In this document: positions 12,775-22,314 of the stretch, piece by piece | Layout of the letters: every line of letters begins with the position of its first letter | Numbering within the stretch: the first letter of the stretch is position 1 | Origin: an uncultured Bryobacteraceae bacterium | Lineage (GTDB): Bacteria > Acidobacteriota > Terriglobia > Bryobacterales > Bryobacteraceae | Assembly: GCA_938027685.1 (NCBI GenBank) | Contig: CALJAM010000011.1 | Span: 248,001 to 312,000, forward strand | Direction: 5' to 3' | Length of the DNA stretch: 64,000 nt | Translations under genes and position numbers: made by a program | The notes under the pieces: generated by a model | Database searches by the model: none | What the model was told of the DNA's origin: nothing | What the model saw: the letters and a program-made list of their open reading frames with translations, nothing else

Positions 12775-14208
12775 GTGAAAGACCTCTTGGTGATGAAATT
12801 CGGCGGGACCAGTGTCGGCTCGGCCGAACGGATCGCTTCAGTCTGCCGCATTCTGAGCGAAGAGGCCCGGCGACGGCCGGTAGTGGCTGTGATCTCGGCC
12901 ATGTCGAAAGTGACGGACTTGCTGCTCGAGACGCTCAGGCGGGCCGAAGCCGGGGACGAAGACGACGTGCGCGCCAACATTGGCCGGCTCGAGGAACGCC
13001 ACGTCACCACCTGCCGCCAGTTGTTGCCGGCAGACGCGCAGGACGCGGTGCAAGAAAACATCCGGCAGATCATCGCCGAGTTCCAGCGCATCGCCACGGG
13101 CATTCTCATGCTAGGCGAGCGACCGCCGCGTTCGGTGGATGAAGCCGTGGCGGTAGGCGAGCGCCTCTCCGTGCTGTTGGTGACTGCCCACTTGAGATCC
13201 CAGGGCGTACGCGCAGAAGCCGTCAACGGCGCCGATGTCATCGTGACGGATGCGGTCTTCGGCAATGCTACGCCGCTGATGGAGCCGACGCGCGCCAAAG
13301 CGCAGGCACGGCTGCGGCCCCTGCTGGAAGCGGGCGTTTTGCCGGTCGTCACAGGCTTCAACGGAGCCACCGTGGACGGCAAGCCGACCACCCTGGGCCG
13401 CGGCGGTTCGGATTTCTCGGCTTCCATCCTGGCCGCCGCGCTGGAGGCCGAAGAACTGTGGATCTGGACCGACGTGGACGGCATCATGACCGCGGACCCG
13501 CGCATCGTGCCGGACGCCGCGGTGCTGGCGGAAGTGACGTACAACGAAGCGGCCGAGCTGGCCTACAACGGCGCCAAGGTCCTGCACCCGCGGACCCTGG
13601 CCCCGCTTATCGAGCGGCAGATCCCGGTATGGAGCAAGAACAGCTTCGCGCCGGAGAAACCGGGGACGCGCATCGTGCCGCGCATCCAGGTCTCCAACGG
13701 AGCCCGCGCGGTGACCTCGCTGCCGCACGTGGCCATGATCTCGATCGAGCCCACGAGCGGAGTGCTCAGCGGGGCGCAGATCATGGGCAAGGCGCTGGAA
13801 GCGCTGGGCCGCGCCAACGTGGAGGTGCTGGCCTTGACCAGTTCCTCCTACCGGCAGGCCTTCTGCTTTCTGGTGCGCCAGAGCGAGCTGGGGGCGGCCA
13901 TGGAGGCCCTCGAGGACGCCTTGCTGCTCGAGCTCGAGCACGGCTACGTGAAGCCCATCGAGGTGGACGAGGAAGTGGGTTTGCTGGCCGTCGTCGGCGA
14001 GGGCATGCGCGGTACGCCCGGCCTGGCGGGCCGGATCTTCACCGCCATTTCCCGCGAGCGGATCAATATCATTGCCATCGCCCAGGGATCTAGTGAGCTG
14101 ACCATCGCCATCGTGGTGCGTCGCGACGAACTCGAAAAAGCTGTGCGCGCCGTTCACGCCGAGTGCCGCATGGCGGAGCAGGCGCGATCACTCGCGGGGA
14201 GCGTATGA
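12775..14208 (+). CDS. lysC: Aspartokinase (monofunctional, ThrA-type N-terminal domain)
   Basis: Phosphorylates aspartate, the first step to lysine, methionine and threonine. The protein has 477 residues when begun at GTG 12775, which has AGGAG eight bases upstream; an ATG at 12712 would add 21 residues without character. The kinase domain starts KFGGTSVGSAERI and contains FNGATVDGKPTTLGRGGSDFSA and WTDVDGIMTADPR. Two ACT domains follow (about 315-385 and 400-470), the second with GEGMRGTPGLAGRIFTAISR, which normally bind lysine or threonine for feedback control. Its TGA overlaps the ATG of the TonB receptor, an unusual coupling between biosynthesis and uptake genes. Confidence 0.93.
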   Translation: MKDLLVMKFGGTSVGSAERIASVCRILSEEARRRPVVAVISAMSKVTDLLLETLRRAEAGDEDDVRANIGRLEERHVTTCRQLLPADAQDAVQENIRQIIAEFQRIATGILMLGERPPRSVDEAVAVGERLSVLLVTAHLRSQGVRAEAVNGADVIVTDAVFGNATPLMEPTRAKAQARLRPLLEAGVLPVVTGFNGATVDGKPTTLGRGGSDFSASILAAALEAEELWIWTDVDGIMTADPRIVPDAAVLAEVTYNEAAELAYNGAKVLHPRTLAPLIERQIPVWSKNSFAPEKPGTRIVPRIQVSNGARAVTSLPHVAMISIEPTSGVLSGAQIMGKALEALGRANVEVLALTSSSYRQAFCFLVRQSELGAAMEALEDALLLELEHGYVKPIEVDEEVGLLAVVGEGMRGTPGLAGRIFTAISRERINIIAIAQGSSELTIAIVVRRDELEKAVRAVHAECRMAEQARSLAGSV

Positions 14209-16409
14209 GGCTGGCGAAGTTCGCGGGCGCCTGCTACCTGATCGCAGCGACGCTGCTGGAAGCGCAGGCGGGCAGGGACACCCTTCAGTGGCTGGCCACG
14301 CTGCAATGGCTCAAGCAGGAGCTCCGGCAGGCGAGGGTAGAGCCGCGCCGCAACCAAGAGCTGGCAAGCGAAATCCGCTCGTTGGCGCGCGAGATCCGAG
14401 CCGCAGGAGTGCAAATCGAACTGCCCAGTGCAAGCGATGCGGATGCGCTCATCGAGTACGTAGACCGGCTGCGCGCCACCCTCGAAGAATACGAGCGGAC
14501 GCGGCCTGGCGGGGCCTTCCAGATGGGGCGCATCGAAGTACACGTAGCGGCGAAAGCGCCCCAGACGGCGGTGGCGGCTACCGTGGACGAGAACACTTAC
14601 CGCTTGCGCAACGCGCAGACGCTGGCCACGGCTCTGGCCTCTGCACCCGGGGTTCACCTGGACCGCATCGGCCAACGTAACGAGCTGGGGGTCCTGATCC
14701 GCGGATTCGACGTGCGCCAGGTCCCGATCTACGTAGACGGCATCCCGATTTACGTGCCTTACGACGGCTACGTGGACCTGGACCGGCTGCTCGTGGCGGG
14801 CATCAGCGAGATCGAGGTGGCCAAAGGTTTCACCTCGCCGCTTTACGGACCGAATGCCCTCGGCGGCGCCATCAACCTGATTTCCCGGGAACCGGCGAAA
14901 CCTTTTCACGCCGAAACGGGCGCCGGCTACGGATCCGGCGAGCAGGTGCAAACATTTTTCAACGCCGGCGTGCGACGCAGCCGCTTCTGGACCGAGACCG
15001 GTTTTTCTTGGCTCTCCGCCGATTCATTCCCGCTATCGACCAAGTTCGCCGGCAGCCCTACGCAGCCGCGGGGGCGACGCGTGAATGCCTGGCGCGAGGA
15101 CTCGGTGTTCAGGGCGCGCTTCGCCTGGACTCCGGGCACAGGCCGGCAGTACTCATTCACTTTTGCAAGGCAAGAGGGTGAGAAGGGTCAGCCGCCTTAC
15201 GCGGGCCTCGATCCCGCGGTGCGCGTACGCTACTGGCAGTGGCCGCAGTGGGACAAGCAGAGCTACTACCTGATCGGCTCCCACGAGATCGGCCCGCGCT
15301 CATATTTGCGCGCCCGGCTGTTTCGCGACGAGTTCCGCAACGTGGTCAAGTCCTTCGACGACGCGCGGTATGCGACCCAGTTGCGGCCTTCCTCCTTTAC
15401 CAGCCGCTACGACGACGCCACGCACGGCGGCATCGCGGAATTCGGATCCGGTCTCGCCGCGCGTCACACGCTGAAGAGCGCCATTTACGTCAAGCAGGAT
15501 CGGCACCGGGAAGGCAACTTAGGCGAGCCGCAGCGGGCTTTTCGTGATCTGTCCCTTTCGCTCGGGCTCGAGGATACCTTTCGCTGGGACGGTCGGACCA
15601 CATTGGTGCTGGGACTTAGTGGCGATTGGTTGAGCAGCCGCCGCGCCGATGACTTACGCCAGGGTCAGATCCATCCGTTTCCCACGGGCTCCACAGGCAT
15701 CTTGAACCTGCAGGCGGGACTGTGGCGAGCGGTTTCCGAGAGCGGCCGCATGCGCGTGACGTTTGCCCGCAAGAGCCGCCTGCCCACAATGAAGGACCGT
15801 TACTCGTATCGACTGGGCACGAGCGTGCCCAACCCGTGGCTGCGCGCGGAGCGATCGAACAACTGGGAAGCCGGTTACTCGCAACTGCTCGGCCGCACCA
15901 CGCTGGTGGAAGCGGCGCTCTTTGGGAGCTGGCTCAACGACACGGTGGACCGCTTTTACCTTCAGCCCAACGTCTACCAGCTGCGCAACCTGGGTCGTAC
16001 GCGTCAGCTGGGCGCTGAACTGGCGGCGCGCAGCAGTCCCCATCCGAGGCTGGAACTTACCGCAACTTACACCTACCTGACGCGCACCAACCTATCCGAC
16101 CCCAGCCTCCCGCCGGTGGGCTCGCCTCGCCACCGCGCCTACGCGGCGATGGTGGGCCGGGTCCACGCCCGGCTGTTACTGTATGCCGATGGGACTTACG
16201 AATCGGCACGCCCCATCCGCAACGACGCGGGCCGGCTTATGCGAACTCCGCCCTATTGCGTAGCCGCCGCGGGTGCAACCGTGAAGCTCGGATCGAACCT
16301 GGAGCTGCAGGCGGGGGCCGGCAACGTTTTCGATCGCAACTATTGGCTGATGGACGGGTATCCTGAGGCGGGCCGTCATGGCTACCTCAATCTCCGCTAT
16401 CGGTTCTGA
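14205..16409 (+). CDS. TonB-dependent receptor of compact (BtuB/FecA-size) type with helical N-terminal extension
   Basis: Outer-membrane receptor of 734 residues. Start ATG 14205 has GGGGAG just upstream and overlaps the aspartokinase stop. A signal peptide (KFAGACYLIAATLLEAQA) is followed by an unusual helical stretch of about 80 residues (about 25-105, rich in Leu/Arg/Glu). The plug is about 120-230, with NTYRLRNAQTLATALASAPG, GVLIRGFDVRQVPIYVDGIP and GPNALGGAINLISREP. The barrel ends in the canonical aromatic YLNLRYRF. Unlike the Oar-like receptors here it lacks the carboxypeptidase-regulatory-like domain and resembles receptors for small complexes such as siderophores or cobalamin. It overlaps the next gene by 32 bases, so the two form a unit. 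Confidence 0.88.
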   Translation: MRLAKFAGACYLIAATLLEAQAGRDTLQWLATLQWLKQELRQARVEPRRNQELASEIRSLAREIRAAGVQIELPSASDADALIEYVDRLRATLEEYERTRPGGAFQMGRIEVHVAAKAPQTAVAATVDENTYRLRNAQTLATALASAPGVHLDRIGQRNELGVLIRGFDVRQVPIYVDGIPIYVPYDGYVDLDRLLVAGISEIEVAKGFTSPLYGPNALGGAINLISREPAKPFHAETGAGYGSGEQVQTFFNAGVRRSRFWTETGFSWLSADSFPLSTKFAGSPTQPRGRRVNAWREDSVFRARFAWTPGTGRQYSFTFARQEGEKGQPPYAGLDPAVRVRYWQWPQWDKQSYYLIGSHEIGPRSYLRARLFRDEFRNVVKSFDDARYATQLRPSSFTSRYDDATHGGIAEFGSGLAARHTLKSAIYVKQDRHREGNLGEPQRAFRDLSLSLGLEDTFRWDGRTTLVLGLSGDWLSSRRADDLRQGQIHPFPTGSTGILNLQAGLWRAVSESGRMRVTFARKSRLPTMKDRYSYRLGTSVPNPWLRAERSNNWEAGYSQLLGRTTLVEAALFGSWLNDTVDRFYLQPNVYQLRNLGRTRQLGAELAARSSPHPRLELTATYTYLTRTNLSDPSLPPVGSPRHRAYAAMVGRVHARLLLYADGTYESARPIRNDAGRLMRTPPYCVAAAGATVKLGSNLELQAGAGNVFDRNYWLMDGYPEAGRHGYLNLRYRF

Positions 16410-18126
16410 GCAGCGCAGGGCCGCGAGCGGCCTCGTCTGGCGCCGAGCCGCGGCGCTGGGGAGTTTATGGGCTGCGTTTGAGATCGTCGTCGGCAGTTTC
16501 CTGCACAATCTCCGCATGCCCTTCACCGGCGCGCTGCTCGCCTCGCTGGGCGTATTGTTGATGTGCGCGGGCGTGCGTGTGTGGCGTGACCGCGGGCTGG
16601 TGTGGCGGGCCGCGCTGATCTGCGCCCTGATGAAATCCGTCTCACCCAGCGCGGTCATCCTCAATCCGATGATCGGCATCTTCGCCGAAGGGCTGCTGCT
16701 CCAGTTGGCCTTAGTCGCGTTCGGGCGGAACTGGCCGGCTTGCGCAATCGGCGGGGCGCTGGCTGTCAGCCTGACGCTGGTGCAGAAGATTGTCTCCCTG
16801 CTCCTGGTTTACGGCACGGACGTGGTGCGGCTGTACGAGGGCCTGGTGCGCTACGCAGCGCGTGCGAGCGGCTGGCATGGTTTGTCGCCGGAAGCGCCGA
16901 TTCTCACGCTGCTTGTCGCGCAAGCCGCGCTCGGCGCGGCAGCCGGCCTCGGCGGTTGGAGGTGGGCAGGTAGGTACAGACCCGGCGTCCTTTCAGGCCG
17001 CCCGCAGGAGCCGAGCGGTAGGCTTGCAGAAGCCTCGCAGCGCAGGTCGGCGCCGGTGAAGCCCTCGCTGCCTTGGCTGACGGCCGCTGCGGCGGCCTTG
17101 CCGGCCGGGATGTTCGCGGTCTCCAGCTATCCGCTCGCGTGGAGCGCGCCGGCCATAGCGGGGGTCGTGGCATTGGCTCTTTGGCGGTACGGCAGGGCCA
17201 TGCGCAGGTTGCGACGGCCTCGGCTGTGGATCGAGCTGGCAGCGGTGCTGCTTTTGGCGAGCCTCGTGTTCGGCGCCATCGAGAACGACGTCGGACGAGG
17301 ATTGCGTTCCGGCGCCCAGATGATCCTGCGCGCCGTGTACGTAGTCGTGATGTTCTCGGCCATCAGCGTCGAGCTGACGCACCCGCGCATCATCGGCAGG
17401 TTGCGGCGCGGCCGTTTTGCCGCTGCGGGAGCGGCGCTTGAGGCTGCGTTCCGCGCGTTGCCGGACTTCCTCGGCATGATGCCGGCCGTTCGAACGGGGC
17501 TCCGCAACCCTTCCGAGACTCTGGCCGCCCTGTTCGACCGCGTGGAGTACTGGCAAGGTCGGACGCCGGCGGTGGTGCTGCTGACCGGTGAAAAGGGGGA
17601 AGGTAAGACCGCGCTCTGTGAGGAGCTGGCGAAGCTGGCGCGGACGCGCGGCTACCTCGTGGGCGGCGTTCTTTCGCCAGGCTCGTGGAGCGATGGCACG
17701 CGAGCCGCGTACCGGGTCCTGAATCTGCTGACCGGAGAGAGCCGTCCGCTGGCTCGACGCAGCGGCGAGCCCGGACCGGTCCGCCAGGGTCCCTTTGTTT
17801 TCGACCTGGCGGGACTCGAGTTCGGCCTGGCCGCATTGGCGGATGCCGCCGCTCGCCGCGCGGACCTGGTTATCGTGGACGAGGTGGGACCGCTCGAGTT
17901 GCGGAGCGAAGGATGGGCGCCGGAGCTCGACCGGTTCCACGCGGAGGCCACTTGCCCGATGCTTTGGGTGGTGCGACCGGGTCTGCTGGAGCAGGTACGG
18001 CAGCGCTGGCCCGGGCTCGATGGGGCGCCCGTGCTGCGAGTCCGTGAGACCAGCGCGCGCGAGCTCGCAGCCCTGCTCCTGGGAGGGGAGTTTTATCGGG
18101 GCTCGTTGCAGCATACCGGGCGGTGA
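16378..18126 (+). CDS. Fusion of polytopic membrane module to THEP1-like NTPase
   Basis: Protein of 582 residues in three parts. Residues about 22-195 form five or six membrane segments and carry GSFLHNLRMPF (39-49), of the size and style of ECF-transporter substrate-binding subunits. After a polar linker (about 197-230), residues about 232-345 add three or four further helices followed by a basic amphipathic region (about 338-390). Residues about 396-578 are an NTPase_1/THEP1-like domain with P-loop GEKGEGKT (404-411) and Walker B-like VIVDEVGPLEL (498-507). The overlap of 32 bases with the receptor gene implies joint expression. I infer an uptake system: receptor in the outer membrane, this protein in the inner. 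The NTPase assignment is firm; the transport role is inference. Confidence 0.75.
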   Translation: MATSISAIGSEQRRAASGLVWRRAAALGSLWAAFEIVVGSFLHNLRMPFTGALLASLGVLLMCAGVRVWRDRGLVWRAALICALMKSVSPSAVILNPMIGIFAEGLLLQLALVAFGRNWPACAIGGALAVSLTLVQKIVSLLLVYGTDVVRLYEGLVRYAARASGWHGLSPEAPILTLLVAQAALGAAAGLGGWRWAGRYRPGVLSGRPQEPSGRLAEASQRRSAPVKPSLPWLTAAAAALPAGMFAVSSYPLAWSAPAIAGVVALALWRYGRAMRRLRRPRLWIELAAVLLLASLVFGAIENDVGRGLRSGAQMILRAVYVVVMFSAISVELTHPRIIGRLRRGRFAAAGAALEAAFRALPDFLGMMPAVRTGLRNPSETLAALFDRVEYWQGRTPAVVLLTGEKGEGKTALCEELAKLARTRGYLVGGVLSPGSWSDGTRAAYRVLNLLTGESRPLARRSGEPGPVRQGPFVFDLAGLEFGLAALADAAARRADLVIVDEVGPLELRSEGWAPELDRFHAEATCPMLWVVRPGLLEQVRQRWPGLDGAPVLRVRETSARELAALLLGGEFYRGSLQHTGR

Positions 18127-18320: not shown

Positions 18321-18698
18321 ATGCAGAAGCAGGCCAAGAAGGTGTTGGCGGCGGTCGGCGATCTCTTCTTCACGATTAAGATCACCGATGCGGCCAAGAA
18401 AGCAGGACTGCCGGTAGAGTTCGTGAAAACGGACAAACAACTCTTTGAGAAAGCCCGGGAGATGCCCTCGCTGATCGTGGTGGATCTGAACTTCCAGGAT
18501 GTTCATCCGCTCAAGACGATCGCACGGCTCAAGAGCGATCCCGAACTGAAGCAGATCACCGTGATCGGTTACGTGCTTCCCGTCCAGGGCGAGCTGAAGC
18601 AAAAAGCGCAGGAGACCGGCTGCGACATGGTGCTGGCGCGGGCGGCCTTCTCGCAGAACCTGCCCCAGATTTTCAAGCGCCACGCCAGCGCGGCTTGA
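18321..18698 (+). CDS. Degenerate CheY-like receiver protein
   Basis: Protein of 125 residues with the alternating beta-alpha pattern of a response-regulator receiver. Asp55 sits in the phospho-acceptor position (LIVVDLNFQD). The acidic pair normally found near the N-terminus is absent (only Asp14), and the conserved Lys of the KP motif is replaced (MVLARAAF). Normal phosphorylation switching is therefore doubtful; it may be a pseudo-receiver acting by protein contact. No output domain. It lies 13 bases upstream of the MttB-family gene and is probably cotranscribed with it. Confidence 0.65.
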   Translation: MQKQAKKVLAAVGDLFFTIKITDAAKKAGLPVEFVKTDKQLFEKAREMPSLIVVDLNFQDVHPLKTIARLKSDPELKQITVIGYVLPVQGELKQKAQETGCDMVLARAAFSQNLPQIFKRHASAA

Positions 18699-18711: not shown

Positions 18712-20169
18712 ATGAGGCCCGCGCTGCGTCTGTTGGAGGGTGCGCTCGTCGAAAGCATCATCGGCGAGGCCTTCGCTCTCCTTGCGCAGCTAGGTGTCGA
18801 AGTCCACAACCCGCCTTTGGTCTCCCTGCTTGCGGATCACGGAGCGCGACTCGGCGCCGACGGGCGCATTCGTCTTCCGGAGAATCTCGTCGAGCGCTGC
18901 CTGGCTAGCGTTCCCCGCGCCTTCCGTCTTTACGACGTCCTCGGAAATCTCACACACGAGTTCACCGGTGAGAACGTGTACTTCACGCCCGGCTCGGCCG
19001 CCATCCACATACTCGATGCTCGCACGGGCCAGATGCGCAAGCCGGTCACGGCGGATTACGTTCGTTACGCAAAGCTGGTCAGCCGACTCGAGCATTTGGC
19101 TTCGCAAAGCACCGCTCTGATCCCCGCCGACGTACCCGCCGCCATTTCGGACAGCTACCGGCTGTACCTGAGCCTGCTTTATTCGGAAAAGCCGGTGGTC
19201 ACGGGCGCTTTCACCATCGAGAGCTTTCGGGTGATGCACGAGATGCAGGTCATCGTGCGGGGCGATGAAGGCGAACTCCGGCGCAAGCCGCTGACCGTCT
19301 TTTCCTGCTGTCCCACGGCGCCGCTCAAGTGGAGCGACGTCACCAGCCAGAACCTGGTGGATTGCGCGCGGGCCGGCATACCCGTCGAGCTGGTCTCCAT
19401 GCCTTTGTCGGGCTTCGTGGCGCCGGTGACGCTGGTGGGCAGTCTCATCCAGCAGACCGCTGAAAATTTGAGCGGCGTGGTGATCAGCCAGACGGTAGCT
19501 CCGGGCCACCCGCTGCTGTTCGGGGGATCGCCCGCCGTTTTCGACGTGCGCTACGAGACCACGCCCATGGGCGCGATCGAGACGGCGATGCTGAACTGCG
19601 CCGCCAGCCAGATCGGCAAGCGCCTGGGCATGCCTACTCAGGGGTACGTGGGCCTCAGCGACGCCAAGCAACTGGACCCCCAGGCGGGCCTGGAGAGCGG
19701 CATGGGAGCGCTGCTGGCTACGCTGGCGGGCATCAACAGCGTCTCCGGCCCCGGTATGCTCAATTTCGAAAGCTGCCAGAGCCTGGAGAAGCTGGTTTTG
19801 GACAACGAAATCTGCGGCATGTGTTACAGGCTGACGCGGGGCGTCGAACCGCGCGAGGATTTCCCCTCCCTGCGCCTGTTCGAAGAGCTGTTGCGCGAAA
19901 AGCACCTGCTCATCGCCGATCACACCAGGCGTTACCTCCGCGACGAAATCACCTTTCCCGGGCGCGTGATCGACCGGGCCAACCGCGAGCGCTGGGCGAA
20001 GGCCGGCTCGCCCTCTTTGCTGGACCGCGCGGTGCGCGAGGTCGAACGCCTGATCGGGGAATGCCCGCCATCGCGGCTAGCGCAGGAACGCAAGACGGAG
20101 CTGCGGATGCGCATGCAGGCGGAGGCGCGACGGCACGGGATGCCGGAGCTACCGCCGCTGGAAGACTGA
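18712..20169 (+). CDS. MttB superfamily corrinoid-dependent methyltransferase homologue (non-pyrrolysine)
   Basis: Protein of 485 residues of the trimethylamine methyltransferase (MttB) superfamily, TIM-barrel enzymes that move a methyl group from a methylated amine or betaine to a corrinoid protein. Family-like segments are YFTPGSAAIHILDARTGQMR, GTFTIES-type GAFTIESFR and GINSVSGPGMLNFES. The frame runs without an in-frame TAG, so it is a non-pyrrolysine member like glycine-betaine methyltransferase MtgB; the substrate is unknown. No corrinoid protein or reactivase gene is nearby. It converges on the HlyD gene with 7 bases between stops. Confidence 0.85.
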   Translation: MRPALRLLEGALVESIIGEAFALLAQLGVEVHNPPLVSLLADHGARLGADGRIRLPENLVERCLASVPRAFRLYDVLGNLTHEFTGENVYFTPGSAAIHILDARTGQMRKPVTADYVRYAKLVSRLEHLASQSTALIPADVPAAISDSYRLYLSLLYSEKPVVTGAFTIESFRVMHEMQVIVRGDEGELRRKPLTVFSCCPTAPLKWSDVTSQNLVDCARAGIPVELVSMPLSGFVAPVTLVGSLIQQTAENLSGVVISQTVAPGHPLLFGGSPAVFDVRYETTPMGAIETAMLNCAASQIGKRLGMPTQGYVGLSDAKQLDPQAGLESGMGALLATLAGINSVSGPGMLNFESCQSLEKLVLDNEICGMCYRLTRGVEPREDFPSLRLFEELLREKHLLIADHTRRYLRDEITFPGRVIDRANRERWAKAGSPSLLDRAVREVERLIGECPPSRLAQERKTELRMRMQAEARRHGMPELPPLED

Positions 20170-20176
20170 TCACTCT

Positions 20177-21250
20177 TCACAAGCCAGGCGCAGGCCGGCG
20201 GAGCGAGATGCGTACCTGAGCGTTCATGCCCGGTTTCACGGCAGGACTCGGATTGGCGAACTCCACCACCACGCGCCCGTCCTTTTCGAGGGCAATTACG
20301 CGTCCGGTGAGCGCACCAGGCGGTCCCTCAGCCACCTCCACCATGACCGGCTGGCCCACGCTCAGACGCTCTAAGACCGGGGGTTCGGGCTCGACAACCA
20401 CTTCCAGCACCGAGAGGTCCACGGCGATCTGAAGCAGGTCCGGCACGTGCGGCCCCACGGGGTCGCCAGGCTGCCGGTTACGCGCCAGCAGGACTCCGTC
20501 CACGGGCGAATGCACTTCCGTGGCTTCGAGCTTCCGCTGCGCCGCCTCCAGCGCCTCACGCGCCGCTTCGAGGTGCTTGCGCGCTGCATCGAGCTCCTTG
20601 GTGAGCGAGTCCACTCGGTCCTCGGCCAGGCGCGCCATATCCTCGCTGCTCTGGAACTGCCGGCTCGCGGCTTCGAACTCTTTTTTCGCCCGCTCGAAGG
20701 CGAGCTTGCCGACGGCTCCCTCCTGAAATAGGAACTGCTGGCGCTCGAAGATGCGCTGAGCCTTCTCGTAATCGTCACGCACGCGCTCAGCCTCGGCGCG
20801 GGCCCGAGAAGCCTCCAGACGCGCAGCAATCAGGGCGCTTTCCAGAGCTCGCACGCGGCCCTCTGCGCGTTCAAGATCGGCTTTTGCCGTTTGGTGCTCG
20901 GCTTGCAGGCCCTCATTGTGGATGCGGGCCAGCAACTGACCTTCGAAGACTTCCTGGCCCGGCTCGGCCATGTACCGCTCGAGGATGCCTTCGACGGGCG
21001 CGGAGACCTGCACGATGTGACGGGCGCGGATCGTGCCGGGCAGGACGACTTCGGGCGGGAGCGACTCTTGTACGGGCCCGGCTTTTCCAGATGCGGCGGG
21101 CGCGGACTCTCGCCGAAGCAAAACCCACGTAGCACCCGCCGCGCTCAACACGGCGAGCGCTGTACCGATTTGCACCAGCCGCTTGGTCCTCGCCACGGTG
21201 CGCGCTGCTTTGAATGTATCATTGTCGCTATGCCTGCGGTTGCGTTGCAC
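20177..21250 (-). CDS. HlyD/RND-type periplasmic adaptor protein
   Basis: Membrane-fusion (adaptor) protein of up to 357 residues. One N-terminal membrane anchor (about 26-46) is followed by the first half of a lipoyl-like domain (VLPGTIRARHIVQVSAPVEG), a long alpha-helical hairpin (about 113-245), the second lipoyl half (VHSPVDGVLLARN), and a beta-barrel portion. Adaptors of this kind link an inner-membrane pump to an outer-membrane channel. No ABC, RND or TolC gene is adjacent, so it is an orphan here. The ATG at 21250 would overlap the divergent chrA start by 21 bases; GTG at 21196 or 21172 are plausible alternatives. Confidence 0.8.
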   Translation of the reverse strand: MQRNRRHSDNDTFKAARTVARTKRLVQIGTALAVLSAAGATWVLLRRESAPAASGKAGPVQESLPPEVVLPGTIRARHIVQVSAPVEGILERYMAEPGQEVFEGQLLARIHNEGLQAEHQTAKADLERAEGRVRALESALIAARLEASRARAEAERVRDDYEKAQRIFERQQFLFQEGAVGKLAFERAKKEFEAASRQFQSSEDMARLAEDRVDSLTKELDAARKHLEAAREALEAAQRKLEATEVHSPVDGVLLARNRQPGDPVGPHVPDLLQIAVDLSVLEVVVEPEPPVLERLSVGQPVMVEVAEGPPGALTGRVIALEKDGRVVVEFANPSPAVKPGMNAQVRISLRRPAPGL

Positions 21251-21802
21251 CGCCTAGGCGCGCTTTTCCTGCGCGTGGGCAACTTCACTTTCGGGGGCGG
21301 CGAGCCTATCATGGCTGCCTTTCAGCGCGAGCTCGTGGAGCGCCGGCGCTGGCTCACCGCAGAGCAGTACGCGCTGGCTTTCGCGCTGGCGCGGATCACG
21401 CCGGGGACCAACGTGCTGGCCTTCTGCGCGGCCGCAGCCTGGTTCGTGCGCGGCTGGTTGGGAGCGCTCGTGGCCGTGCCCGCAGCCACCCTGCCCTCGG
21501 CTGCGATCGTGGTGGCGCTGACGGCAGTCTACGAGCAGGTTCGGAACATGCCTCTTGCGGCGGGCGCCATCTCCGGACTGTTGGCGGCGGCGGTGGGTAT
21601 GATGCTGGCCGCCGCCTGGAACCTCCTCCAGTCCCGCCTCGTCCCAGGCAATCGGCTGCGTATGACATCGCTGGCGCTGGGCGCTCTCGTGCTACTCGTC
21701 GTCTTGCGCCTTTCGCCCATTCCTGTGCTCGCGCTGGGAGCCGCGGCGGGAGCGCTGTGGAAGGGGCCGCTAGGCGAGCGAGAGCTGCGAGAACCTTCAT
21801 GA
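21230..21802 (+). CDS. chrA: Chromate transporter, N-terminal-type half (split ChrA)
   Basis: Inner-membrane protein of 190 residues with five or six hydrophobic segments, corresponding to one CHR domain. Hallmarks are LFLRVGNFTFGGGEPIMAAF and ALARITPGTNVLAFC. Family members export chromate, usually as a two-domain protein; here the two halves are separate genes joined by an ATGA overlap at 21799-21802, the short-chain pair arrangement. The ATG at 21230 was chosen because the upstream in-frame extension is unrelated sequence. Chromate itself is not proven as the substrate. Confidence 0.82.
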   Translation: MPAVALHRLGALFLRVGNFTFGGGEPIMAAFQRELVERRRWLTAEQYALAFALARITPGTNVLAFCAAAAWFVRGWLGALVAVPAATLPSAAIVVALTAVYEQVRNMPLAAGAISGLLAAAVGMMLAAAWNLLQSRLVPGNRLRMTSLALGALVLLVVLRLSPIPVLALGAAAGALWKGPLGERELREPS

Positions 21803-22314
21803 ACGTAATCGTGCTCTATCTGCTGCTGCTCAAGGCGACGGTCACCTCGTTCAGCGGCCTGACGTCGCTGCCCGTAATCCATCACGATCTGGTCGTCGAG
21901 CGACGGATGTTGAGCGAGCGGGAACTGAACGCCGCCGTGGCGGCCGGTCGTGCGGGCCCGGGCCCCTACGGCCTGTATGTGGTGAGCGTAGGTTATTTGG
22001 TTGCGGGCATCCCGGGGGCGGCTGCGGGCGCGCTGGCCCTGATGACGCCGGCCTTCCTCATCGTTCCCATGGCGCGTTACCTGGGTCGCCGGGCGGAGCG
22101 GCCGCGCGTGCGAGGCGCCATCGAAGGCGTGCTCGCGGCCGCGGCGGGGCTTCTGGTGGCCTCCACGCTGCCCATGGCGCGCGAGGCGGTAATCGGCCCC
22201 TTCTTCGGCCTGCTCACCCTGGTTTCCCTGCTGCTTCTCAGCACGACGAGAGTGGATGTCGGCTGGGTATTGGTGGCCGCAGCTTCCGCAGGATTGTTGC
22301 GCGCCGCTCTCTGA
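21799..22314 (+). CDS. chrA: Chromate transporter, C-terminal-type half (split ChrA)
   Basis: Second CHR-domain protein of 171 residues, mostly membrane-embedded, with LLKATVTSFSGLTSLPVIHHD and GRAGPGPYGLYVVSVGYLVAG. It begins at the ATG within the ATGA that ends the first half, so the two products are made together and probably form a heterodimer with opposite membrane orientation, as proposed for paired short ChrA proteins. Stop at 22314. Confidence 0.82.
   Translation: MNVIVLYLLLLKATVTSFSGLTSLPVIHHDLVVERRMLSERELNAAVAAGRAGPGPYGLYVVSVGYLVAGIPGAAAGALALMTPAFLIVPMARYLGRRAERPRVRGAIEGVLAAAAGLLVASTLPMAREAVIGPFFGLLTLVSLLLLSTTRVDVGWVLVAAASAGLLRAAL

Follow-up and report, generated by a model that had tools for sequence, protein, structure and literature searches.

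The window analysed here, a stretch of 64,000 nucleotides (G000:C11:248001-312000) from a 3.9 Mb Bryobacteraceae genome with an estimated completeness of 97%, carries a gene for a TonB-dependent receptor that runs into a gene for a one-piece membrane protein ending in a THEP1-type NTPase (hereafter the fusion; Table 1). The original prediction of a receptor gene overlapping a gene for fused membrane helices and THEP1 by 32 bases is borne out by the coordinates of both genes, and the positions it gave for the two nucleotide-binding motifs were exact. Comparable overlaps of 26-32 nt occur in G081, G010, G143 and G044, and the stop of the upstream aspartokinase gene is itself overlapped by 4 nt by the receptor gene. 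Downstream of the pair lie genes for a receiver-like 125-aa protein (18321-18698) and an MTTB-family methyltransferase without an in-frame amber codon (18712-20169), both kept beside the pair within the genus, and a chromate transporter encoded as two half-length genes (20891-22311), with PF02417 in both.

Table 1. Positions of the receptor gene, the fusion gene and their features in the window
Feature	Position	Strand	Description
TonB-dependent receptor	14205..16409	+	734 aa, ATG 14205, stop 16409; Plug PF07715
One-piece S-T-THEP1 membrane protein (fusion)	16378..18126	+	582 aa
Receptor/fusion gene overlap	16378..16409	+	32 nt
S-like module	16429..16977	+	residues about 18-200, six helices
T-like module	17068..17559	+	residues about 231-394; without Ala-Arg-Gly coupling segment
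THEP1/NTPase_1 domain	17575..17976	+	residues 400-533; PF03266
Walker A GEKGEGKT	17587..17610	+	residues 404-411
Walker B and catalytic Glu, DEVGPLEL	17878..17901	+	residues 501-508

The receptor and the modules of the fusion

The plug domain of the receptor, at about 14574-14870, was recognised at E 1.7e-18 (67.5 bits against a cut-off of 23.9), and this region matched Cir, BtuB and ShuA in the PDB. Matches to beta-barrel models were partial and all below cut-off, as were those to the models of TonB siderophore, B12 and haem receptors and to the TonB-receptor model TIGR01783 (E 1.3e-29). The receptor is like BtuB, Cir and siderophore-type receptors in its plug domain and size, but falls under every curated cut-off of the ligand-specific models, and therefore no ligand can be assigned to it. 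It had been described as compact, which does not especially suit a protein of this length with an extra N-terminal segment of ~110 residues ahead of the plug.

The fusion comprises about 10-11 membrane helices and the C-terminal NTPase. AlphaFold2, using an alignment of family members, modelled the full-length protein with a pLDDT of 89.3 and a pTM of 0.82 and residues 1-395 with a pLDDT of 87.8 and a pTM of 0.83, placing six helices in residues 18-199, four to six in residues 231-394, and the NTPase after them. When the Foldseek shortlist of 999 chains for the membrane part was re-ranked with VIA-align, the first and second places went to two S-components of energy-coupling factor (ECF) transporters, 5EDL (which we take to be YkoE; Z 11.8 over 168 aa, model residues 12-207) and ThiT (4MUU, Z 7.3), with the proviso that helical bundles may reach comparable Z by chance. 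VIA re-ranks only this shortlist, and Foldseek by itself did not rank 5EDL or ThiT significantly for the membrane model. The 5EDL match spans the whole S-like domain, in line with the suggestion that residues about 22-195 are S-like, and these S-component matches were obtained in place of any to an unrelated membrane family. Residues 12-207 of the model thus adopt an ECF S-component fold. Within this domain none of the 21 aligned S rows, fused or split, departs from E35, K86 and P97, which are candidate binding-site residues, and helix 1 carries A24-x3-G28 in place of AXXXA, a feature retained in 20 of the 21 rows.

The THEP1 domain matches NTPase_1 (PF03266) at E 4e-19 (69.5 bits against a cut-off of 23.9) and is the only such match in the window genome; in Foldseek it retrieves 2I3B (E 1.1e-5) and 1YE8 (E 5.5e-5). 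It shares its fold, Walker A and B motifs and catalytic Glu with the COG1618 proteins represented by Aquifex aq_1292 (1YE8) and the human NTPase (2I3B), and Walker A and B are intact in every fused and split copy in which the region is present. The characterised THEP1 proteins are free soluble proteins of unknown function, whereas the domain in the window is covalently attached to a predicted membrane importer. A THEP1 crystal structure has been available since 2005, and the role of these proteins is, to our knowledge, unsettled in bacteria, archaea and humans alike. Hydrolysis of NTPs by purified Aquifex THEP1 is very slow, at 5-9e-3 per second (PMC1079890).

Conservation of the pair and its split relatives

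The fusion recurs, open and full length, in both remaining genomes of the genus (64-74% identity), in two other Bryobacteraceae genera (42-53%), in genomes from several more families of the phylum (34-44%), and in a MAG labelled Armatimonadetes and one further MAG; in a third other Bryobacteraceae genus (G048) the gene is cut by contig ends. Because the same open fusion recurs in about a dozen genomes, down to 34% identity, it is not a product of chance. Carriers make up 7 of the 237 Bryobacteraceae genomes, and the receptor lies directly upstream of the fusion in all seven, across four genera (in G048 it was recognised by its C-terminal part, at 42% identity), so that the pairing is not unique to the window genome. 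The flanking lysC, receiver-like and MTTB-type genes are likewise conserved within the genus, whereas the pair persists between different neighbours in the other genera. A remnant of THEP1 with a broken frame, with no S, T or receptor left, is found in G099 (L054:8364-8860), while other members of its genus retain the intact pair. Outside the Bryobacteraceae the fused gene has no TonB-dependent receptor as neighbour, and in two g227 genomes a divergent DUF3373 gene, presumably for an outer-membrane barrel, lies directly beside it. The expectation of a conserved receptor pairing consequently holds for the Bryobacteraceae carriers and one distant split operon (G696), but not for the fused relatives elsewhere.

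Twenty split loci (in G393, G521, G293, G441, G527 and 15 more genomes) have the gene order double-domain ABC ATPase, S, T, with short stop/start overlaps, a few bases long, wherever a start could be placed clearly. In 19 of the 20, T and THEP1 form one chain; in G393 THEP1 has a gene of its own. The double-domain ABC ATPase directly adjoins S and T in every split locus, as against none of 13 fused loci. In the fused locus of G713 (L152) an ABC gene lies 1.1 kb off, between HlyD-type-like and outer-membrane-efflux-type-like genes, and we read it as part of an efflux set. Two low-GC relatives (L065:7753-9281 in G278 and L066:4259-5772 in G516) have an S-plus-membrane gene and then a separate THEP1 gene, with no ABC ATPase nearby. 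In the tree of S modules fused and split forms are separated by one change, and the NTPase tree is compatible with one or two changes. Since the split form with ABC occurs in some genomes of the genus g227 and the fused form in others, replacement by transfer is likely within that genus. In G696 a receptor gene with Plug and barrel Pfam matches over cut-off runs straight into an operon of ABC, S and T::THEP1, which links a TonB receptor to this ECF-like system independently.

These relatives also connect the second half of the membrane part with T-components. The split T of G393 passes the Pfam CbiQ cut-off (28.2 against 25 bits), that of G527 matches CbiQ weakly, and the split T set aligns with the genuine CbiQ proteins of the same genomes at an hhalign E of 9e-5 over 172 columns. 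The fused T set in turn matches the split T set at E 4.7e-8, and the corresponding comparison for S gives E 7.5e-31. A direct hhalign comparison of fused T with CbiQ gave no match, and the structure search did not recognise this part, EcfT being absent from the Foldseek shortlist for the membrane model, to which the re-ranking by VIA is confined. By sequence comparison, residues about 231-394 share homology with the T-component of the split relatives, and it is through this chain of split T proteins that homology to the EcfT scaffold is drawn. The proposal that residues about 232-390 could be T-like is upheld in this form, as homology to the CbiQ/EcfT-like T proteins of ABC-S-T operons. Invariant residues of the module are M315, R318, A319, E332, L361 and P362. 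An Ala-Arg-Gly-type EcfT coupling motif is present in 12 of 12 split T proteins and in 0 of 14 fused ones. In the split proteins it lies near the C-terminus (AALRG or ASLRG in 11, AQARA in G393) and aligns with AMLARG in CbiQ; all 14 fused modules have this segment deleted, seen as an alignment gap, and retain no such motif there. Because fused T is homologous to the T of ABC-S-T operons, and because T::THEP1 occurs in nearly all of these, THEP1 can be counted as a component of an ECF-type system.

Set against group I ECF transporters, with their dedicated S, T and EcfA, the fusion has in common the S-component fold and a T-like scaffold, and the split relatives resemble them further in the double ABC ATPase and the EcfT coupling motif. 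The fusion differs in having S and T in one chain, a C-terminal THEP1 and a TonB-dependent receptor as partner, and in lacking both ABC ATPases at the locus and the coupling motif. The last two are defining features, and the window protein, though ECF-derived, therefore falls outside the strict definition of an ECF transporter. BtuM and solitary BioY are S-fold importers without an ECF module, and the fusion likewise has an S fold and no ABC gene at its locus. BtuM is also linked to an adenosyltransferase gene. Both BtuM and BioY are without a T module or a fused NTPase; in the window protein the S fold does not stand alone, the chain continuing into a T-like module.

Clues to the substrate

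Neither the window nor any of 31 related loci contained an Rfam riboswitch match. A metal chelate or a cofactor is the likeliest class of substrate. DUF364 genes, for which a link to heavy-metal uptake has been described (PMC2954201), adjoin the loci of G017 (immediately ahead of the receptor), G443, G393, G162 and G424. As a universal partner DUF364 was discarded, since it adjoins only these five loci and has no match over cut-off in the window genome.

Some relatives lie next to molybdenum enzymes, of the xanthine-dehydrogenase type in L160, L161, L068 and L069, and L162 neighbours a molybdopterin oxidoreductase that is probably NapA. ModA is absent from all 7 fused Bryobacteraceae carriers and present in 198 of 230 others (Fisher p 2e-6; by genus p 0.001). 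MoaA is absent from 5 of the 7, the window genome included, and the missing ModA is to be expected in those five because MoaA is missing there as well. Molybdenum as the substrate in the window genome, which has neither ModA nor MoaA, is unsupported; it may hold for the relatives that bear molybdenum enzymes. In the genus of the window (G000, G081 and G010) MoeA is present, beside ctaA/ctaB-like genes, and the MoaA C-terminal domain had no match in any of the three genomes.

Molybdopterin hydroxylase genes were observed beside or near the S/THEP1 loci (L160:8452-11109, L161:8953-11658, L179:1876-4245, L068 and L069). No MoeA_N match was found in four relatives bearing such hydroxylases (G716, G710, G162 and G424), a gap that may reflect incomplete bins, a divergent MoeA or import of ready-made cofactor. 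In L068:7377-10017 and L069:7069-9700 an S-like gene, DUF364, XdhC and THEP1 follow one another within a molybdenum hydroxylase/MobA-like cluster, with no T or ABC gene among them.

A proposed two-membrane uptake system and its alternatives

We propose, with a rough probability of 0.5, that the pair forms a two-membrane uptake system in which the receptor serves an ECF-derived S-T importer whose transport cycle is probably driven or gated by THEP1, the sole NTPase attached to it. The data behind this proposal are the S fold, the T homology, a THEP1 domain with intact motifs, the gene pairing, and the lack of both an ABC gene at the locus and a coupling motif; from them we infer import, energising or gating by THEP1, and a ligand shared by receptor and importer. 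The receptor would bring a scarce ligand across the outer membrane into the periplasm, where the S module would bind it, with S and T working against each other as in ECF transporters. The nucleotide cycle of THEP1 would then drive or gate the movement of S against T, resetting S after release. Relatives resembling the ancestor have the layout double ABC ATPase, S, T::THEP1, and the form in the window has since lost both the ABC ATPases and T's coupling motif. Since THEP1 is already present alongside ABC ATPases in that layout, its original role was not that of an ECF motor. The original prediction that THEP1 replaces the ABC ATPase is accordingly consistent with the loss of the ABC genes and coupling motif, and sits less well with the coexistence of both in ancestral-type operons, because of which THEP1 may be accessory to the system and not its motor. 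The very slow NTP hydrolysis of Aquifex THEP1, the lack of a direct CbiQ match for fused T and of EcfT in the structure shortlist, and the receptor-free neighbourhoods of fused genes outside the Bryobacteraceae also weigh against the proposal. It is tempting, if tentative, to regard THEP1-type NTPases as a second kind of engine for ECF-type modules, a RecA-like NTPase joined to T that drives import by S once the ABC ATPases are lost, yielding a one-protein, ABC-free, NTP-driven importer with its own TonB receptor.

In the main rival explanation, which we consider rather unlikely, S-T is a facilitator like a solitary S-component, a mode of uptake proposed for BtuM and some BioY, and THEP1, without powering transport, acts on the ligand in the cytoplasm by trapping, modifying or releasing it. 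There is a precedent in BtuM, which is ECF-free and co-localises with the adenosyltransferase BtuR, metabolic trapping having been proposed (PMC6072759), and the closest fold to THEP1 by DALI is cob(I)alamin adenosyltransferase (PMC1079890). The loss of the coupling motif and the presence of THEP1 beside ABC ATPases in split operons also fit accessory ligand handling. However, a solitary S-component does not need a T module, yet here T is retained and conserved, and both adenosyl transfer and kinase activity of THEP1 have been argued against (PMC1079890).

Alternatively, the fusion might work as a conventional ECF transporter with an ABC ATPase recruited from another locus, THEP1 having a regulatory part. 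In group II ECF systems a single ATPase module is shared, and in the window genome an ABC ATPase gene adjoins that of the one canonical CbiQ (G000:C18), so that in principle a single-domain CbiO-like ATPase could serve the fusion. This reading is improbable: the Ala-Arg-Gly segment, EcfT's grip on the ATPases, is missing from all the fused T modules, and with the split-operon ATPase as query no orphan two-domain EcfAA'-like ATPase was found in the window genome, where the matches were single-domain and the best of them stood beside the canonical CbiQ. It is very improbable, finally, that the fusion uses the S-component fold for sensing or signalling rather than for transport. Although that fold also occurs in 5TMR sensor kinases and in MreD, large side chains are described for sensors at the place where helix 1 of the fusion keeps its small-xxx-small motif (PMC11109136); a T module is present, the relatives stand in ABC-S-T operons, and there is no signalling output domain.

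No paper treating THEP1 and energy-coupling factor together was found in the open-access literature. Should THEP1 prove to energise or gate the ABC-free form, this would amount to a motor swap in a primary transporter family, of which we found no description in the literature searched. THEP1 stands beside or fused to ECF S and T modules in 20 operons that include an ABC gene and in some 13 fusions that lack one, and these loci therefore tie THEP1 to membrane uptake and make its function testable.
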